Shown: one piece after another, positions 3,567 to 12,493 of the stretch
Layout: every line of letters starts with the position of its first letter
Position numbering within the stretch: the first letter of the stretch is position 1
Assembly (NCBI GenBank): GCA_902783315.1
Contig: CACZQK010000027.1
Location: 1 to 36,113, forward strand
Source of the DNA: an uncultured Erysipelotrichaceae bacterium
GTDB lineage: Bacteria > Bacillota_I > Bacilli_A > RF39 > UBA660
Direction: 5' to 3'
Length of the DNA: 36,113 nt
The notes under the pieces: generated by a model
What the model saw: the letters and a program-made list of their open reading frames with translations, nothing else
Told to the model about the DNA's origin: nothing
Databases searched by the model: none
Program-made: the position numbers and the translations under genes

Positions 3567-3593
3567 AAAAAAATATTATTAGTATTTGATATT
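3567..3593 (-). terminator. Weak terminator of the permease gene
   Basis: On the minus strand AATAT (89-93 of the 3500s) and ATATT (3572-3576) can pair around a loop containing the permease stop codon, followed by a seven-T run. The stem is only five A-T pairs, so confidence is low. Confidence 0.3.
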
Positions 3594-4376
3594 GATAAAA
3601 TTCCAAATTTTATCAATAATTATATACATAAGATAGGAAACAACACCAAGAATAAAAATGCTACTAATAACAAGATTGAGCTGAAATACTTGAGAACCAT
3701 ACATAATAAGAAAACCTAGACCATTTTTAGATACTAGTAATTCTCCCATAATAACTCCAATCAGACTTAATGAAATATTTATTTTTAAAGTAGAGAAAAT
3801 CAAAGATAAATTACTAGGAAAAATAACTTTTCGATATATTTGATGATCTTTTGCACCAAAACTCTTTAATAAGATAATATATTTTTTATCTACAGATATA
3901 AAACCATTATAAATAGTAATAATAGTAGTAAAAATACTAATAGTTAATGCCATAAAAACAATAGAATGAATACTAGCACCAATCCAAATAATAATTAATG
4001 GTCCTAAAGCTACTTTTGGCAAAGAATTCAAAATAACAATATAAGGATCTAGGATTTTTGATAATCTTTCAAATCTCCATAATAAAGAAGCAATAAAGAT
4101 TCCCAAAATAGATGAAATCGTAAAACTAAGAAAAACTTCCCAAATAGTAACAAACATGTGATGATATAACTCTCCACTTTTACTTAAAGAAAGAATAGTA
4201 TGAAGAATTTGACTAGGAGAAGAGTATAAAAAAGAATTAATAATAGAAAAGCGAGCAAGACCTTCCCAAAGAAGAAGAAAAAAAATGCAAATAAAAATTT
4301 GATAAAAAAGAACAATCTTCTTTTCTTTTTTTATCTTTTTTATAAATTGATCGTGCTCACTACTAAATATGAACAT
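3579..4376 (-). CDS. ABC transporter permease, SsuC/TauC/ThiX family
   Basis: 265 residues with about six membrane spans. The cytoplasmic EAA-type loop near residues 170-190 (KSFGAKDHQIYRKVIFPSN) couples the permease to its ATPase. Family knowledge: SsuC, TauC and ThiX-type permeases form importers for sulfonates, taurine or pyrimidine/thiamine precursors. The substrate cannot be read from this sequence. The ATG is preceded by GGAGGG with good spacing, and the reading frame overlaps the end of the upstream ATPase gene by 14 bases, showing translational coupling. The matching binding protein lies about 5 kb away on the same strand, beyond a block of plus-strand genes. Confidence 0.85.
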   Translation of the reverse strand: MFIFSSEHDQFIKKIKKEKKIVLFYQIFICIFFLLLWEGLARFSIINSFLYSSPSQILHTILSLSKSGELYHHMFVTIWEVFLSFTISSILGIFIASLLWRFERLSKILDPYIVILNSLPKVALGPLIIIWIGASIHSIVFMALTISIFTTIITIYNGFISVDKKYIILLKSFGAKDHQIYRKVIFPSNLSLIFSTLKINISLSLIGVIMGELLVSKNGLGFLIMYGSQVFQLNLVISSIFILGVVSYLMYIIIDKIWNFINIKY

Positions 4377-5109
4377 CTAAATCCCTCCATATTTTTTCAT
4401 AATAAGAAGAAAACTCTTTTGCCTTTCTATTTTCAACAGGAAGTTTTCTTTTTTCAAAAGAGATGTTATAAATGCTTTTAACACAAGCTGGGCGCTTTGA
4501 TAAAACAACAATTCGATCAGACATACTAATAGCTAAAGAAATATCATGAGTAACCATAATAGCTGTTTTGCCTTCTTGTTTAATAATTTGATAAATATCA
4601 TTACTAATAGCTAATCCAGATTGATAATCTAAAGCTGAAGTAGGTTCATCTAGTAGAAGAATATCTGGCTTTATAGCTAAAGTTCGAATAAGAGCACAAC
4701 GTTGCCGCATCCCACCAGACAAACTATCAGGATATTGATTCATAAAATCCTCAAGACCATAAGTTTTTAAAAGATAAATAACATAATTTTTATTATCTTC
4801 ATTTAATAAACCATTAACTTCTAAGCCAATAAGACAATTATCTAAAACAGTACGAAAAGGAAGAAGACAATCATCCTGTAACATATAAGCAATTTTACAA
4901 GAATCTTTTATAGAAATAGTTCCACCAGATTTCATTGTAAGACCACTAAGAATAGAAAGAATAGTACTTTTTCCACATCCACTAGGTCCAATAATAGAAA
5001 TAAATTCATTTTCAAAAACAGAAAAACTAATATCTTCTAAAGCTAATATTTCTTCTTTTGATGTTTGATAATTCTTTTTTAAATGATGAAGCTCCAATAC
5101 TTTATTCAT
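4363..5109 (-). CDS. ABC transporter ATPase, SsuB/TauB/ThiZ family
   Basis: 248 residues with a full set of ABC motifs: Walker A GPSGCGKS near residue 42, Q-loop in AYMLQDD, signature LSGGMRQRCAL, Walker B ILLLDEPTSALD, and switch His in THDI. Overall this matches the nitrate/sulfonate/taurine class of importer ATPases, which energise the permease encoded directly downstream. AGGAGG precedes the ATG at ideal spacing. A possible -10 TACAAT lies just upstream of the ribosome site, but the -35 is poor. Divergent from the plus-strand gene beginning at 5243. The substrate is not evident. Confidence 0.9.
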   Translation of the reverse strand: MNKVLELHHLKKNYQTSKEEILALEDISFSVFENEFISIIGPSGCGKSTILSILSGLTMKSGGTISIKDSCKIAYMLQDDCLLPFRTVLDNCLIGLEVNGLLNEDNKNYVIYLLKTYGLEDFMNQYPDSLSGGMRQRCALIRTLAIKPDILLLDEPTSALDYQSGLAISNDIYQIIKQEGKTAIMVTHDISLAISMSDRIVVLSKRPACVKSIYNISFEKRKLPVENRKAKEFSSYYEKIWRDLDVHI

Positions 5110-5202
5110 AAAATCCTCCTAACAATATATTGTATGAAAAAAGAAAGGAAATGCCCATGATATATTTATTAGAAAAATAAAATCCAGAAAATTATTTTTT
5201 TA

Positions 5203-5221
5203 GTTTTAGTGATATGATATA
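5203..5221 (+). promoter_or_regulatory. Extended -10 promoter of the accessory block
   Basis: TGA-TATACT (about 5213-5221) is an extended -10 element upstream of the ATPase gene at 5243, with only a T-rich stretch in the -35 position. A second TATAAT follows at 5224-5229. The exact element used is uncertain. Confidence 0.35.
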
Positions 5222-5242
5222 CTTATAATGAGGTGATAAGCT

Positions 5243-7099
5243 ATGAGGTTAATGTTTGAAGTATATTTAACAAAAAAATCCACCTCACAAGATGAATGGT
5301 CAAAATTAATAAATATAATATCAAACTATAATGGTTTTTTAAAAAAATGGAAAATTTTAGTTGTTAATGATAAGAATCAAATTAGATATTTTATAAAAAC
5401 AAACTGTACTCTTCCACCTACAATTAATGATCTAAATGCTTTTTTATTAAAACCCGTAAAAGCAAAAAATGTCCCCAAACCTACATATGTATTACCTACA
5501 CTTCCTAAAAAAGAAAATAGTATTATAGGTTTAATTAACTATTATGAAGTTAAAAACAAAGGAATCCTAAAATACCTAGAAATTAGTTTTGTAAAATTAT
5601 ATGACCACAAAGTAAAATCAAAAATAGCTTATTATGTTAAAGAAAATAAAAGTTTAAAAAAGTATCATCTGCTTCTTGAAGAACCAACTAATGTATTAGC
5701 CATAGATTTTGGCAGTAACAAAAGATACTTTTATAAAAGTTGCCCAAAATATTTAGAAATTAACAAAATATTACATTTATTAAATACCGATTCTAATAAT
5801 GCAATTTTAGCAGTTGATACCTTTCCATATTTACAAGGTAGTTTCTATTTAAGTCAAAATAATTTTAGTTTTGATAAACATTCGATAATAATGGGAGCAT
5901 CTGGATGTGGAAAATCAAAATTTATCAGCTTAATAATTAATAGTATTAATAAGAATAGAAACTTAAAACAAAAATATAAATTTGTAGTAATTGATCCACA
6001 TGCAGCACTAGAAAACGATATAGGAGGAATTGGTAAAGTAATTGATTTTAAATCTACTTTAGATAGTATTGATTTATTCATGAATAATAGTAATGATATC
6101 GTATCATCTACAGAATTATTATTAGAACTATTAAAATCATTGCTTTCTGATCAGTACAATTCAAAGTTAGAAAGAGTCTTAAGACATTCAATACATATAC
6201 TCTTAAAAAATGAAACATTTAATTTTAAAAACTTAAGAAAACTATTATTAGAATTAGAATACAGAAATGAATTAATAAAAAAACTTCAGTTAGACTTACC
6301 AAATAGCGTTATTGATTTCTTTTTATCTGACTTTAATGATTTAAAAACAAAATCATATGGAGAAGCAATATCTCCAATTATAGGATTTATAGATGAAATG
6401 GAAATGATACCTGTATTTAATTCAGAACAAAAAAGTGAAAACTTAAAAGATACAGTTCATGAAAACTTTTTAACAATATTTTCTCTTGATAGAACAAAAC
6501 TAGGAGATAAAGTTACTAAAACGATTTCAGGATTAATAATGCAACAATTACTAACGATAATCCAAGAAAGAGTAATTGATGAACATATAATTTTTATTAT
6601 TGATGAAGTTGCTGTAATAGAAAATCCAATTTTATCAAGATATTTATCAGAAGCAAGAAAATATGACTTGTCTTTAATTTTAGCCGGACAGTATTTTAGT
6701 CAGATTTCTGAAGAACTAAAACACTCAATATTTGCTAATGTTATAAATTATTTTATTTTTAGAGTATCAAAATTAGATGCCAATATATTAGTAGATAATT
6801 TTAACATGAAAATTCCTTTAGATGATTCGAAAGATTTAAAAGTAAAACTATTGACAGAATTAAATAATAGAGAATGCATCGTTAGAATTGGAGTTAACGG
6901 AATAATGATGCCTGCATTCAAAGGAATGACTCTAAATTATACAAGTATACCTAGAGTTAAGAGAAAAAATAGCATAAGTAGTAAGGATAATGAAAACAAA
7001 GAACAAGAAAAAATAAGCTTTAGTTTAAATAGTAATGTAAAGTTAAAAGACATTTTAATATCTAATTCCACAAGAAAGGAAGTAATAAAAGATGAATGA
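5243..7099 (+). CDS. HerA/VirB4-like (DUF87-type) P-loop ATPase
   Basis: 618 residues. Residues about 1-200 form an unrecognised beta-rich N-terminal domain. A RecA-like motor follows, with Walker A GASGCGKS at 218-225 (Lys224), 'VVIDPHA' after it, Walker B FIIDE with Asp454-Glu455, and a sensor-like LAGQYFSQ about 25 residues on. The long helical insertion (about 285-400) and motif order are typical of the HerA/FtsK superfamily, which includes VirB4/TraC-type conjugation ATPases and DNA-pumping motors. The C-terminus (about 575-618) is Lys/Ser/Glu-rich and probably disordered. There are no membrane spans, so it is cytosolic or membrane-associated through partners. AGGTGA sits 6 bases before the ATG. 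It overlaps the next gene by 8 bases. No other secretion or conjugation genes are nearby, so the job of this motor is open. Confidence 0.65.
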   Translation: MRLMFEVYLTKKSTSQDEWSKLINIISNYNGFLKKWKILVVNDKNQIRYFIKTNCTLPPTINDLNAFLLKPVKAKNVPKPTYVLPTLPKKENSIIGLINYYEVKNKGILKYLEISFVKLYDHKVKSKIAYYVKENKSLKKYHLLLEEPTNVLAIDFGSNKRYFYKSCPKYLEINKILHLLNTDSNNAILAVDTFPYLQGSFYLSQNNFSFDKHSIIMGASGCGKSKFISLIINSINKNRNLKQKYKFVVIDPHAALENDIGGIGKVIDFKSTLDSIDLFMNNSNDIVSSTELLLELLKSLLSDQYNSKLERVLRHSIHILLKNETFNFKNLRKLLLELEYRNELIKKLQLDLPNSVIDFFLSDFNDLKTKSYGEAISPIIGFIDEMEMIPVFNSEQKSENLKDTVHENFLTIFSLDRTKLGDKVTKTISGLIMQQLLTIIQERVIDEHIIFIIDEVAVIENPILSRYLSEARKYDLSLILAGQYFSQISEELKHSIFANVINYFIFRVSKLDANILVDNFNMKIPLDDSKDLKVKLLTELNNRECIVRIGVNGIMMPAFKGMTLNYTSIPRVKRKNSISSKDNENKEQEKISFSLNSNVKLKDILISNSTRKEVIKDE

Positions 7100-7790
7100 T
7101 AGTAAAGCCCTTGAAATAGTTGATAAAATATTTAAAGGTATCTTTGATACAAATAATAATAGCTCATTAGAAACAATATTAGAGAAATTTGCCTTTGATG
7201 TAAAACTACCAAAACAAGTCAATGATTCTACGACAAATGAGATAACATGGGCAGATTCAATTAGTAGTGGTAGATTTATAACAAATGAAAATATGGAAAA
7301 AAGAGATTCAACAATAGGTTGGATGATTCCAAAAAGAAAAATAAATAATTTGCAAGAATTGATTGATATTTGGAATACAATTAATTTAACTACAACAGAA
7401 AGAGTTTATGATTCAATAAATGTAGTAAAAAGTGATACTATTTATCGTTGTGAAAATGTCTATCGTTGTACAGATTGCAATGACTCTAAAAATATAGTTT
7501 ACTGTGATTCTTGTGTAAATTCTGAATTTTTACTTGCCTCTCAACGATCAAGTACCTGCAATTTTTGTATAAGATGTGATGATTCAAAAAATTGCAGTAA
7601 TAGTTATAATGTTATTTGTTCAAATAAAGCCAACAATTCCTTATTTATTCAAGATTGTTATGATGTATATGAATGTATGTTTTGTTCTCATATTGCTTCC
7701 AAAAAATACTGTATAGCAAATATGCAATTTGAAAAAGAAGAGTATTACGAAATAAAGAAACTTATAATAGAATGGATATTAAATTCATAA
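7092..7790 (+). CDS. Cys-rich repeat protein, partner of the HerA-like ATPase
   Basis: 232 residues. The first 118 residues are an ordinary globular stretch. Residues 120-207 hold 14 cysteines in short repeats (YRCENVYRCTDC, YCDSC, CNFCIRC) spaced like rungs of a beta-helix or stacked zinc-binding knuckles. The end, KKYCIANMQFEKEEYYE, resembles a motif I recall from Cys-rich hypothetical proteins of candidate phyla; that link is from memory and unverified. There is no signal peptide, so the cysteines probably bind metal in the cytosol. It starts 8 bases inside the ATPase gene, in a different frame, with AGGAAG about 11 bases upstream, so the two are translationally coupled and probably act together. 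Function unknown. Confidence 0.6.
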   Translation: MNDSKALEIVDKIFKGIFDTNNNSSLETILEKFAFDVKLPKQVNDSTTNEITWADSISSGRFITNENMEKRDSTIGWMIPKRKINNLQELIDIWNTINLTTTERVYDSINVVKSDTIYRCENVYRCTDCNDSKNIVYCDSCVNSEFLLASQRSSTCNFCIRCDDSKNCSNSYNVICSNKANNSLFIQDCYDVYECMFCSHIASKKYCIANMQFEKEEYYEIKKLIIEWILNS

Positions 7791-7831
7791 AAGCTAAGAC
7801 TAAAATTACTGTAAATTATCAAAAATTAGTA

Positions 7832-7859
7832 TTGATTTTACATATTTCTGTTGTATAAT
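7832..7859 (+). promoter_or_regulatory. Sigma-A promoter of the orphan helical gene
   Basis: TTGATT (7832-7837), 16-base spacer, TATAAT (7854-7859), 21 bases before the ATG at 7881. A TTG start at 7851 would fall inside this promoter and is therefore rejected. Confidence 0.6.
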
Positions 7860-7880
7860 AATACTCCAATGGAGGATTAT

Positions 7881-8828
7881 ATGGAAAAAAGAAAATATGA
7901 TTTTTTTAAAATCTCTAAAGTGAAAAAAATGGCAATCGAGTATTTTCCTAATTTTTTTGGAGAAAATTTGATTGTTACAACTGATCATAATATTGATGAT
8001 TTAGAAAGAGAATATTTAGAATACTGCAAAAAGTACTTTAATATATTTGAGCGTGATACTAATAATGAAAGATATCAAATTCTGCAGGCCTATGAATATA
8101 TTAAAACTCATTTGAAAGAACATACTAAATTTCAAGCCAATTCAGAATTATCAAAAAAAATTTTACAATCTTATGATGAATTGATATCAACGATGGGATC
8201 ATATAAATTTTCTACCTGTGATGATACTTCTTATGGTGCAGTGCAAAACAATACTAATAAAAACATACTACTTGAAATATCATTATTTCAACCATTTTTT
8301 GAATCAGTTTTAAAAAATATAGATGATTACTTTGCAACTATTTCAGAAGCAGAACAAATTGATGAATTTTATTGTGGGTTAGTTTCAAAATTAGAAGAAT
8401 TAAAGAATTTATTGGATCATAGTGAAAAAAAATTAAAATCTGCACAAGAAGAGTACCATACTGCTTGGAATGGCAAAAATGCACCGTACTACTATAGGAA
8501 AGAATACAACATTCCTCCATATACAGCATCAGAATTAGGAGAAGCCAAAAAAGAATGGAGATTGAAGAGAAACGAAGCATGCTATTCTATTTTAAAATTC
8601 TTTAAAGGACTTGAAAATATTAATAAAACGTTATATTGTAATGTAGCTGAATTTAGAGAAAAAGATAATGAATTAGAAATTAGTAATTTATATAATAATG
8701 CAGTTACAAATATAGTCAAAGGTCCAAATTATTTTTGCTATCTTGATGAAGGATATAAAAGAAAAGTGGCAGAACAAATTGAAGAAAAAGCAAGGCAAAA
8801 AGCAAAGGTTAAAAAAATCGAATCCTAA
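7881..8828 (+). CDS. Orphan helical protein, unknown function
   Basis: 315 residues starting MEKRKYDFFK; GGAGGA lies 4 bases before this ATG. I do not recognise a family. The protein is mainly helical and charged. Residues about 170-210 (EEY..., KLEELKNLLDHSEKKLKSAQ) look like a coiled coil, and the C-terminus (EQIEEKARQKAKVKK) is a basic helix. No membrane span, signal peptide or catalytic motif is visible. It is the third plus-strand gene of the block lying between the two halves of the ABC importer, but it has its own promoter and a strong terminator, so it may be regulated apart from the two-gene ATPase unit. Confidence 0.65.
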   Translation: MEKRKYDFFKISKVKKMAIEYFPNFFGENLIVTTDHNIDDLEREYLEYCKKYFNIFERDTNNERYQILQAYEYIKTHLKEHTKFQANSELSKKILQSYDELISTMGSYKFSTCDDTSYGAVQNNTNKNILLEISLFQPFFESVLKNIDDYFATISEAEQIDEFYCGLVSKLEELKNLLDHSEKKLKSAQEEYHTAWNGKNAPYYYRKEYNIPPYTASELGEAKKEWRLKRNEACYSILKFFKGLENINKTLYCNVAEFREKDNELEISNLYNNAVTNIVKGPNYFCYLDEGYKRKVAEQIEEKARQKAKVKKIES

Positions 8829-8838
8829 GACAATTATT

Positions 8839-8874
8839 AAAACCTCAGTTCAATTTATCTTGAATTGAGGTTTT
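8839..8874 (+). terminator. Strong stem-loop terminator of the orphan helical gene
   Basis: Fifteen-pair stem (8839-8853 with 8860-8874, one G-T pair) with loop TTTATC, ending in TTTT then AAATTTT. It begins 10 bases after the stop codon and could work in both directions. Confidence 0.75.
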
Positions 8875-8965
8875 AAATTTTAAGAATAAACGTAATAATA
8901 TATTTAGTATAAAATAAGATGAATTATAATATTACAAATATCCATAAATATTTAATTTGCATCTA

Positions 8966-8997
8966 ATTAAAAAAATGCAGATTTTTTGTCTGCATTT
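8966..8997 (-). terminator. Terminator of the binding-protein gene
   Basis: On the minus strand AAATGCAGA (8989-8997), a 7-base loop and TCTGCATTT (8973-8981) are followed by a T-run. It lies about 87 bases past the stop of the binding-protein gene, so that gene is now transcribed separately from the ATPase and permease. Confidence 0.8.
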
Positions 8998-9083
8998 ATC
9001 CTACAAAATTGCTACAATCTGTTCCTATTTTTATTTGCAGCTATTATATTACTTTTTAGTAATAATGGTATAAAAGAAATTTT

Positions 9084-10088
9084 TTAAGAAATAGAATAAA
9101 ATAATTTTTTATAATCTACTTTCTCAGTTATTTCTCCATAATCAATCATAATATCTTGTAAATGATCAAATGACTTTTTAGAAAAATTAGTTGTTTTTGG
9201 CCAAGTATCATTGCTTCTATAATGAGAAATAGCACTTTCTAAATCATTTAAAGCAGTATCTGGAAATTGCTTTAAAATAGTCTTAGCAATCTCTTTATCA
9301 GTATGATTATGTACATAATCTAATCCTTTTTGAATTGCTTTATCAAAAGACTTAATTAATTCAGGATGTTTTTCAATATAACTAATTCTAGCAGAATATG
9401 AAGTATAAGGAACTACTCCACCTAATTCCCCAACACTAGCAACAACATACCCATAACCTTGTTTTTCAAGCATGGTGGCAGTAGGTTCAAATAAAGTAAC
9501 AAAATCTCCTTGGCCACCAATGAATGCTCCACTCATCGCCGCAAAAGCAATAGAAGTATCAATAGAAACATCGCTCCTAGGATCAATTCCATTCTTCTTT
9601 AAAGCATATTCAAGAGTCATCTCAGGCATACCACCAGCTCTACCACCAATGATATTTTTTCCTTTTAAAGAATCTAACGTAAAATTATCTATCTTTTTAC
9701 GCGAAACTATAAAAGTACCATCTTTTTGTGTTAACTGTGAGAATGTTTTCAAATAGTCTTTCTCCCCACCGTTATAAACATAGATAGTTGCCTCACTTCC
9801 AGAAAAACCAATATCAGCTTCCCCAGCTAATAAAGCTGCCGTAACTTTGTCAGCACCACTAGTAAGAATTAAATTAATATCAATTCCTTCCTCTTTGAAA
9901 AAGCCCTTTTCAATAGAAACATACATTGGTGCATAAAAGATAGTATGAGCAACTTCGGCTAAAGTAACTTTTTCTATTTTTTTAGAAATAGAATTATCCT
10001 TTTTTTCATTAAAGTTAAATAAAGTAGCCGATCCAACTAAAAAAATAGCACATAAACACAACAAGTAAATAAATAACTTTTTCTTCAT
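9084..10088 (-). CDS. ABC importer substrate-binding protein, SsuA/THI5 (NMT1) family
   Basis: 334 residues when started at MKKKLFIYLL, which has AAGGAG 7 bases upstream; the longer frame to 10124 has no ribosome site. A hydrophobic N-terminal helix (about 4-23) acts as signal or anchor, and no clear lipobox Cys is present. The mature part is a periplasmic-binding-protein fold of the NMT1/SsuA class: 'IFYAPMYVSIEKGFFKEEGI' near 46-65, 'LLAGEADIGFSG', and a glycine-rich loop GGRAGGMPE. This class binds sulfonates, nitrate or hydroxymethylpyrimidine-type ligands, and the substrate here cannot be decided. It is the likely partner of the permease and ATPase at 3579-5109, though no riboswitch marks it as a thiamine-precursor transporter. 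Confidence 0.8.
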   Translation of the reverse strand: MKKKLFIYLLCLCAIFLVGSATLFNFNEKKDNSISKKIEKVTLAEVAHTIFYAPMYVSIEKGFFKEEGIDINLILTSGADKVTAALLAGEADIGFSGSEATIYVYNGGEKDYLKTFSQLTQKDGTFIVSRKKIDNFTLDSLKGKNIIGGRAGGMPEMTLEYALKKNGIDPRSDVSIDTSIAFAAMSGAFIGGQGDFVTLFEPTATMLEKQGYGYVVASVGELGGVVPYTSYSARISYIEKHPELIKSFDKAIQKGLDYVHNHTDKEIAKTILKQFPDTALNDLESAISHYRSNDTWPKTTNFSKKSFDHLQDIMIDYGEITEKVDYKKLFYSIS

Positions 10089-10144
10089 AAAAATTCTCCT
10101 TACAAAGTAATATATGAAAAACAAAAAAATATGTTATTATAGTT

Positions 10145-10281: not shown

Positions 10282-10311
10282 AAAGCCACATTAATGAGGA
10301 GGAATGAAAAA

Positions 10312-11862
10312 ATGAAAAAATTAAGCAAAATGACAAAGACAATTTTTACAATGATGATAGCTGTAATAATTACTATTACTTCAGTAATAAATACAAATGC
10401 AGCATCAGAAACAATTCAACTAGGACAAGCATATAAAACACAAAGCTATATAGCAGGAGTATCTTTTTCATACAAAGTAACAACTGATGGAAAATATTTA
10501 TATTGTTTAAATATTCATAAAGAAACAGCTCAAAATGTACAAGCTACTTTGGTGAAAAATAGCTCATACATCAATGGAGGAGTTGTATACATCTTAAAGA
10601 ATGGATACCCAAATAAATCTATTACAGGAGACAAAGACAAAGATTATTACATTACACAAACAGCTTTATGGTGGTATTTAGATAAGACAACAGGAAGTAC
10701 AAATTTAGGAGAACAATTTAAACAAGATGGTTCAGATCCACATGGACTTAGACAACATGTAATCAACTTAGTAAATGAAGGATACAATCATAGAAATGAT
10801 AGTATAGAAACAAAAGAACTTAAATTAGCAATTGATGCCGTAGGTGGAAAATCTATGACATTAAGTAACAATTACTATGTATCAAATGAAATTAAAGCAA
10901 CAGCTATTCAAAATCTTAATAGCTATAATGTAACATTAGAAAATGCCCCAGCAGGAACTGTAATTGAAAAAGCAGGACAAGCAATAAATTATACAGGTGC
11001 ATTTAATGTAAAAGCCAATGAGACTTTCAGAGTAAAAGTACCAGCAGCATCAATAAATGCGACAGCATCAATCAAAGTAGTTGCAAAAGCAAAAGGTGTT
11101 ACTCGTTATACAGCATTTGAATATAAGCCAGCAGATAACAATATGCAACATGTAGCTTTATTTGAAAAAGAAGAAAAAGAAGTATCTAGCAACATTACCT
11201 TAGATATTTCAACATCAAAAGTATCAATATTAAAAGTAGATGCTAATACAAAACAACCATTAGCTGGAGCAAAATTTGTATTAAAAGATGCCAACGGAAA
11301 AGAAATTACGAGTTGGACATCTACTAATAGTGCTCACATTATTAGAAATTTAGCAAATGGAAACTATACCATTGAAGAAGTTGAAGCTCCAATAGGTTAC
11401 GTATTAAATAAAAATATAACTAAGTTTACAGTTACGGATACAAACAGAGACATAAAAATAACAGTTGAAAATACAGCAAAAAAAGTAGTTGTTAATATTA
11501 TCAAAATAGATCAAGCAACAAGAGCACCATTAGCTGGAGCTATACTAGTAGTAAAAAAAGCTGATGGAACAGAAATTGCCAGATTTACAACAACAAATGA
11601 ACCATATGTATTAACAGATTTAGCAAATGGAACATATACAGTAGAAGAAGTAAGTGCACCAGCTGGTTATATTTTGAATACAGAAAAGATTACATTTACA
11701 GTTGATGAAAATCATTTATCTCATCAAATATCATTTGTAAATGCTAAAGAAACACCAGTACCAGATACTGCATCAGCATCTTCATTAATAATGATTATGT
11801 TAGGCCTTGGAATATTAGGTTTTGGAATTAAGTATATAACAAAAAATGCTAAGAGAATTTAA
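10312..11862 (+). CDS. Thioester-domain Cna-B surface adhesin with VPDTA sorting signal
   Basis: 516 residues from the ATG at 10312, chosen because AGGAGG (10297-10302) is 9 bases upstream; an in-frame ATG at 10294 precedes that site. A signal peptide ends near TNA-AS (residue 28). Residues about 33-160 form a thioester domain: Cys65 in YLYCLN and Gln116 in ITQTALW are the usual pair for an internal thioester that reacts covalently with host or other amines. Two Cna-B/SpaA prealbumin-like domains follow (about 303-394 and 396-480), each with the Lys (ILKVD, IIKID), Glu (IEEVEAP, VEEVSAP) and Asn expected for an isopeptide bond. The C-terminus has VPDTA, a hydrophobic span and KRI, a variant wall-sorting signal. 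First gene of a three-gene operon with its sortase. Confidence 0.85.
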   Translation: MKKLSKMTKTIFTMMIAVIITITSVINTNAASETIQLGQAYKTQSYIAGVSFSYKVTTDGKYLYCLNIHKETAQNVQATLVKNSSYINGGVVYILKNGYPNKSITGDKDKDYYITQTALWWYLDKTTGSTNLGEQFKQDGSDPHGLRQHVINLVNEGYNHRNDSIETKELKLAIDAVGGKSMTLSNNYYVSNEIKATAIQNLNSYNVTLENAPAGTVIEKAGQAINYTGAFNVKANETFRVKVPAASINATASIKVVAKAKGVTRYTAFEYKPADNNMQHVALFEKEEKEVSSNITLDISTSKVSILKVDANTKQPLAGAKFVLKDANGKEITSWTSTNSAHIIRNLANGNYTIEEVEAPIGYVLNKNITKFTVTDTNRDIKITVENTAKKVVVNIIKIDQATRAPLAGAILVVKKADGTEIARFTTTNEPYVLTDLANGTYTVEEVSAPAGYILNTEKITFTVDENHLSHQISFVNAKETPVPDTASASSLIMIMLGLGILGFGIKYITKNAKRI

Positions 11863-12493
11863 TAGGGAGAAAGAAAAATCTTATACAACAACAGCTTTTG
11901 TAGGAGCACTAATAACACTAATAGGAGGATTCTTTCTTTTCTATAATTATATAGAATCAAAAAAGATAGTAGCCTATGATTATATGGCAAATGTCTTTTA
12001 CAATGGAACAGAAGTTGCACAAATAAGTGAAGAAGAAGACATAAAAAAACCACTAGAAGAAGATCAATTATCTACAGAAGTAACAAACGAATATATAGGT
12101 TACTTAATCGTACCAAAAATTAATTTAACAAAAGGTTTTCTAGATAAAAGATCAAGTGAAAATGATGTTGAAAAAAATATTTTGGTAGTAAGTGGATCAA
12201 ATTATCCAGATACAGAGAAAGGAAACTTAATTCTAGCAGGCCATTCTGGAACAGGATGGAAGGCATTCTTTAATGATTTATATAAATTAAATATAGGAGA
12301 TGTAGCTTACATCAATTACAAAGGAAAAAAATACATTTATAATATAGTCAATATTTACACACAACCAAAGGTTGGTAAATTAGCTATCTATCGAAACTAT
12401 GATAAAACAACATTGACATTGATAACATGTACAAATAATGATTCTACTACACAAACAATATATATTGCAGAATTAGTAAGTATAGAAGAATAA
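11846..12493 (+). CDS. Sortase
   Basis: 215 residues. One N-terminal membrane span (about 17-34) leads to an extracellular sortase beta-barrel. Catalytic His133 is in LAGHSGT and catalytic Cys195 in TLITC, so the His-Cys pair is intact. The Arg that normally follows on the next strand is not visible: where it would be expected the chain reads STTQTIYIAEL. The gene starts 17 bases inside the end of the adhesin gene without a separate ribosome site, so it is translated by coupling. The likely substrate is the adigent adhesin with its VPDTA motif, which it would cleave and attach to the wall or to a pilin. Sortase class is not decided. Confidence 0.85.
   Translation: MLREFNREKEKSYTTTAFVGALITLIGGFFLFYNYIESKKIVAYDYMANVFYNGTEVAQISEEEDIKKPLEEDQLSTEVTNEYIGYLIVPKINLTKGFLDKRSSENDVEKNILVVSGSNYPDTEKGNLILAGHSGTGWKAFFNDLYKLNIGDVAYINYKGKKYIYNIVNIYTQPKVGKLAIYRNYDKTTLTLITCTNNDSTTQTIYIAELVSIEE

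Follow-up and report, generated by a model that had tools for sequence, protein, structure and literature searches.

Organization of the locus

The window, a stretch of 36,113 nucleotides from an uncultured Erysipelotrichaceae bacterium (contig CACZQK010000027.1), carries two adjoining genes, for a motor ATPase and a cysteine-rich protein (Cys protein), within an insertion between genes of an ABC transporter:

3579-4376 and 4363-5109, minus strand: ABC-transporter permease and ATPase genes, respectively, flanking the insertion on one side
5172-9080, no strand: approximate extent of the insertion (from comparison with sister genomes)
5226-5242, plus strand: TATAAT and GAGGTG as the likely -10 box and ribosome-binding site, respectively, of the motor-Cys operon (from sequence)
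5243-7099, plus strand: motor ORF, 618 aa (Pfam, predicted structure, invariant Walker motifs)
7092-7099, plus strand: 8-base overlap of the motor and Cys-protein ORFs (from sequence)
7092-7790, plus strand: Cys-protein ORF, 232 aa (directly 3' of the motor in relatives; predicted structure; repeat analysis)
7851-8828, plus strand: third ORF in the insertion, outside the conserved module (without family match or relatives)
9084-10124, minus strand: ABC-transporter substrate-binding gene flanking the insertion on the other side

The first-pass annotation had described the ORFs at 5243-7099 and 7092-7790 as overlapping by 8 bases, which is correct: the Cys-protein gene starts with the ATG at 7092 and the motor gene ends with the TGA at 7097-7099. 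Judged from this overlap, the two genes are probably translationally coupled. The third ORF is 325 aa long if read from TTG (7851) or 315 aa if read from ATG (7881); it matched no family in the profile libraries and no other locus compared, and was found in this genome only. It looks coiled-coil-like, and is followed by a hairpin terminator (approximately 8840-8876).

The substrate-binding, ATPase and permease genes of the ABC transporter are uninterrupted in nine sister genomes; hence, the pair lies inside a real insertion, as had been suspected, and the window copy has been relocated. The earlier reading was also right that the pair is not adjoined in the window by a relaxase, NurA or any other conjugation gene. 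Further downstream (10294-12493), repeated Cna-B-like domains in a surface protein are followed by a sortase-like gene, an arrangement that by eye resembles a pilus or adhesin operon.

Properties of the motor and of the Cys protein

The motor comprises an N-terminal domain (residues ~1-166) that is predicted to be alpha/beta, a VirB4/DndH-like ATPase domain (~167-574) and a variable tail. Its Walker A (GASGCGKS, including K224) and Walker B motifs (FIIDE, D454-E455) are intact, as annotated before, and invariant across 52 diverse homologues. The protein passes the Pfam cut-offs for DUF87 (PF01935; 26.4 bits, cut-off 23.2) and TrwB_AAD_bind (PF10412; 24.4 bits, cut-off 20.5). Structure prediction, which had been proposed for each protein, gave a motor model with a pLDDT of 86.1, for which the fold search returned DndH-C on top (Z 28.3), VirB4 (Z 27.9 over 328 residues), TrwB (Z 25.1) and HerA structures (Z ~20-25; 24.8 given for HerA). 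These matches essentially span residues 167-574, and no fold match was obtained for the N-terminal domain in this whole-motor search. The motor is an FtsK/HerA-superfamily ATPase whose core resembles VirB4, DndH and TrwB no less than HerA; its former description as HerA/VirB4-like is corrected in this respect.

HerA is characterised by an N-terminal HAS barrel and a profile match over its full length. Against the NCBIfam model HerA_antiphage, the motor scored 14.3 bits (cut-off 800) over residues 210-240 only. The best profile matches were phrog_5156 (1.9e-15) and PADLOC mad8 (2.2e-15), each on the ATPase core only; mad8 was the best defence-library match in 52/52 motor members (best 4.5e-18), with HerA models ranking lower. 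Mean identity to relatives is 48% for the N-terminal and 72% for the ATPase domain. The window's genome contains two further HerA-like genes elsewhere, so that the motor of the pair is distinct. Among the best viral fold matches was gp156 of Bacillus phage G (E 5e-20), a strong match to the motor; despite this, no phrog_15341-type protein (see below) was found in phage G. In that phage, gp155-gp156 (L134, 4195-8337) are adjoining ATPase genes annotated as VirB-like and MsbA-like.

The Cys protein consists of an N-terminal domain (residues 1-100), a solenoid (~102-208) and a C-terminal helix (215-231). The 14 Cys in about 88 residues that had been noted before are located at positions 120, 126, 129, 138, 141, 156, 159, 162, 168, 176, 189, 195, 198 and 207, that is, within residues 120-207, and, counted modulo 3, 13 of the 14 are in the same phase (binomial ~6e-6 for one named phase). 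Column profiles recur at lag 12 (z 5.3), and with Cys and Ser excluded, lags 12 and 24 are still significant (z 3.4 and 3.5) and lag 18 is not (z -0.1). Laid out in rows of 12, the sequence places Cys or Ser at each third position and has Asp and Asn in the intervening ones. Judged by this periodicity, the repeat is a putative 12-residue, Cys/Ser-cored beta-solenoid. The predicted structure (pLDDT 86.5 overall, but 62-71 across residues 151-210) has short strands each six residues. Its best fold matches are left-handed hexapeptide helices at only Z ~5; a BFVD fold search gave nothing below E 1.

Left-handed hexapeptide beta-helices, as in acyltransferases, have 18-residue turns and an aliphatic core residue at each sixth position, and the antifreeze-type 12-residue beta-solenoid is a right-handed coil with a disulfide-bridged core. 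Outside Cys and Ser, the period of the Cys protein is 12 and 24 rather than 18. Its 12-residue period with Cys, Ser and small residues at each third position is like that of a beetle antifreeze protein with the beta-solenoid repeat TCTxSxNCxxAx (PMC8038014). This likeness is one of pattern only, with no sequence match found, and in contrast to the antifreeze protein, the Cys protein is without a TCT array, has the additional N-terminal domain and C-terminal helix, and is apparently cytosolic; by eye, no signal peptide or membrane segment was apparent in either window protein.

Across 81 Cys-protein sequences, C168, C195, C198, C207 and H200 are invariant, and C138, C141 and C189 are kept in at least 94%; the remaining seven are variable (26-89% Cys), often with Ser instead. 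Half of the Cys thus vary, so that Cys abundance alone is no proof of metal binding; a narrow core explains it, which leaves the invariant set as the sole candidate for a metal or active site. The former description of the partner as probably metal-binding is weakened to that extent. No sequence relatives were found among solved structures, and no matches to Pfam metal-binding families or to enzyme families in the profile libraries searched. The solenoid is better conserved (79%) than the motor N-terminal domain (48%).

A family of phage proteins to which no function is assigned (PHROG 15341) was matched by 51/55 Cys proteins (best 1.2e-6), in the repeat only, where composition could inflate the score; a tblastn search of phages with the Cys protein found no relatives. 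Cys-repeat 'caib/baif' proteins of CPR genomes may be similar to the Cys protein. The search for them with approximate consensus queries returned only a 31-residue, Cys-rich, 'caib/baif'-like fragment (5874-5966 of contig L170), where a phage contig that has tail-like genes ends. Viral-contig scans with motor, A1 and A3 queries found no relatives either, and a viral origin was rejected on these scans.

Distribution, neighbourhood and regulation of the pair

A scan for the Cys protein in one genome per species (84,980 species) yielded 248 relatives; the 80 of these that were listed are all metagenome-assembled genomes labelled Bacilli, Tenericutes, Erysipelotrichaceae, Firmicutes, Clostridia or similar. 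Together with the window and loci L026-L035, nine of which are on contigs already among the 80, they represent 82 distinct loci. The Cys gene is directly preceded by the motor gene in 81 of them; at the sole exception (L038), the contig ends 162 bases upstream. The gaps between the genes are mostly -11 to +9 in relatives (common values, -8, -4, -1 and +3). Separate searches of 99 relatives with the motor and with the Cys protein found an identical set of 12 genomes, with the genes adjoining and no singletons. In an order-level sample, the Cys protein was present in 47/385 genomes and 25/117 genera, all of one family, as a single copy per genome, and some copies are decayed (G418 and G461). A class-level motor search (E 1e-12; three candidates per genome scored) found the motor only in that same family. 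The divergences of motor and Cys protein are correlated (r 0.91, Mantel p 0.001), which shared host descent would also give; those of motor and AraC regulator (r 0.83) and of Cys protein and AraC regulator (r 0.86) are likewise correlated (Mantel p 0.001).

The module is an accessory operon that belongs to a single family of uncultured gut Bacilli, and from the comparison of these sequences, it is near certain that motor and Cys gene form a conserved, coupled module; the pair was not found apart, and hence looks like a real machine. A disrupted conjugative element was ruled out, since in 82 loci the two genes are conserved on their own.

The neighbourhood survey confirmed that the pair stays together at different chromosomal sites; for the suggested defence-type module, it gave no positive evidence, the neighbours being mostly housekeeping genes. 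Positions of the pair differ widely, and a few loci have neighbours in common (by eye, coaD/coaE, MTA-nucleosidase and ASCH-like clusters), so that vertical descent with loss and occasional relocation both seem to have taken place. The 136 flanking proteins have few, scattered defence matches and ordinary functions, e.g. uracil-DNA glycosylase, Ham1, HD hydrolases and aminopeptidase (Pfam tally, first 25 families listed); they offer no clue to the role of the pair. Other than an AraC-family gene, there is no recurrent neighbour across 81 loci, and no secretion, membrane, conjugation or defence gene recurs beside the pair among the loci compared; no integrase or transposase is present within the module.

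The AraC-family gene lies within 4.5 kb of the motor in 52 of the 63 loci with at least 1.2 kb of sequence upstream of the motor, usually directly upstream and on the same strand; 11/63 loci, the window included, are without a linked regulator. No unlinked copy was detected in the window's genome, which is 72% complete. HTH_18, Cass2 and GyrI-like domains were found in 22/22 linked AraC proteins scanned, as in the AraC-Cass2/GyrI drug-responsive regulators (BmrR, Rob-like), to which these proteins are likened by their domains. Cass2 in isolation is able to bind cationic drugs (PMC3048380).

A conserved element of ~35 bp, ACTGACAAAACTGATTATTAAAAAGTCAGTTTTTT, is located between AraC gene and motor and ends ~20 bases before the -10 box of the motor promoter. 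It adjoins the motor in all 47 loci with an adjacent AraC gene, and also in three with an intervening gene or a broken AraC copy; it is absent in the remaining 19 loci, the window included, some of which represent contig ends or misplaced start codons. The element is able to fold as a terminator hairpin, and may therefore be a terminator, an operator, or both; it may be merely the terminator of the AraC gene, a second copy in L070 following the AraC gene. In that locus (L070, 3040-4156), an extra gene of 309 aa between AraC gene and motor is bracketed by two near-identical 35-bp elements, as if inserted by element duplication. At L079 (2514-4145), a second AraC C-terminal remnant and the element are located just upstream of the motor, which suggests that the regulator was duplicated and then decayed. 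The designation as a two-gene system therefore had to be corrected: the pair itself is constant, and an AraC regulator gene, usually with the cis element, accompanies it in most genomes.

Comparison with known systems and possible function

Nucleases, NADases and secretion proteins are known as partners of ring-type ATPases of the FtsK/HerA superfamily, and a motor of this superfamily with a dedicated partner is a known kind of machine. DndH, HerA-DUF4297, HerA-SIR2 and HerA-NurA resemble the pair in this combination. In contrast to these systems, the partner is a Cys/Ser-cored solenoid with no recognisable nuclease or NADase, the N-terminal domain of the motor is predicted to be alpha/beta, and a drug-type regulator is attached; a HerA-type enzyme partner (NurA, SIR2, DUF4297 or other) is absent, and the only constant partner is the Cys protein. 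Neither protein has a full-length match to a known type IV secretion, HerA-NurA or PADLOC defence protein, so that the pair appears undescribed, as had been proposed; for this type of solenoid partner combined with this regulator, no description was found in the profile libraries and literature searched.

The best explanation, which we hold tentatively, is a small-molecule-induced translocase with the solenoid as its adaptor, protecting the cell under chemical stress. A small toxic or signal molecule would bind the AraC/Cass2 regulator, which would then switch on the motor-Cys pair; the motor would assemble into a ring, as in VirB4, DndH or HerA, and pump DNA or protein at the expense of ATP. 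The solenoid would dock on the motor, the fast-changing N-terminal domain being the most likely place, and act as an adaptor or clamp that recognises the substrate via the invariant C168/C195/C198/H200/C207 set together with conserved charged and polar residues. Rather than serving conjugation, the pair would probably remove or remodel DNA-protein or protein complexes.

An anti-phage defence pair, in which invading DNA is seized by a HerA/DndH-like motor that has the Cys protein as its sensor or effector, appears rather unlikely. It would account for mad8 as top defence-library match in 52/52 motors, for DndH-C as top fold match and for the patchy accessory distribution with decayed copies; however, these matches do not extend beyond the common ATPase core, the partner cannot be recognised as a nuclease or another enzyme, control by a drug-type AraC regulator would be unusual in defence, and the Cys partner is slow to evolve. 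MADS defence is a set of genes, mad1-mad8, with a methyltransferase; the motor matches mad8 on the ATPase core, and a single mad3 match was found among the 136 flanking proteins. We consider it improbable that the pair represents an orphan secretion or DNA-uptake motor, i.e. a VirB4-like ATPase that exports the Cys protein or another substrate. The core in common with the type IV secretion ATPases VirB4 and TrwB (Z 25-28), the TrwB_AAD_bind score above cut-off and the phrog_5156 match would fit, but no other secretion or conjugation gene and no membrane partner recurs at the 82 loci, where only the two genes themselves are kept, and by eye, the window proteins show no signal peptide or membrane segment.

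In favour of a metal or redox device, with a Cys ladder as the binding site of a metal or Fe-S cluster through which the motor is gated, are the four invariant Cys and H200 and the three further Cys at 94% or more; the substitution of the other seven, often by Ser, is what a tight solenoid core would give, and with no metal-binding family matched, this reading is an unlikely one. Least probable of all is a selfish or neutral accessory operon, unimportant to its host, kept by transfer and often lost: many different neighbourhoods, the decayed copies and the position of the window copy within an insertion are in its favour, whereas the strong conservation, the single copy per genome, the regulator of its own and the lack of integrase and transposase in the module argue against it.

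The induced translocase with a solenoid adaptor would, if correct, possibly represent a new class of FtsK/HerA-superfamily machine, with an obligate non-enzyme solenoid partner and induction by a small toxic compound via AraC/Cass2. The drug-type regulator predicts an inducer, and makes the question testable. For this family of gut Bacilli, two hypothetical genes (in 47/385 genomes sampled from the order) are grouped into one system, and a Cys-cored solenoid partner kept across 25 genera would, if true, be a new kind of motor-adaptor pairing.
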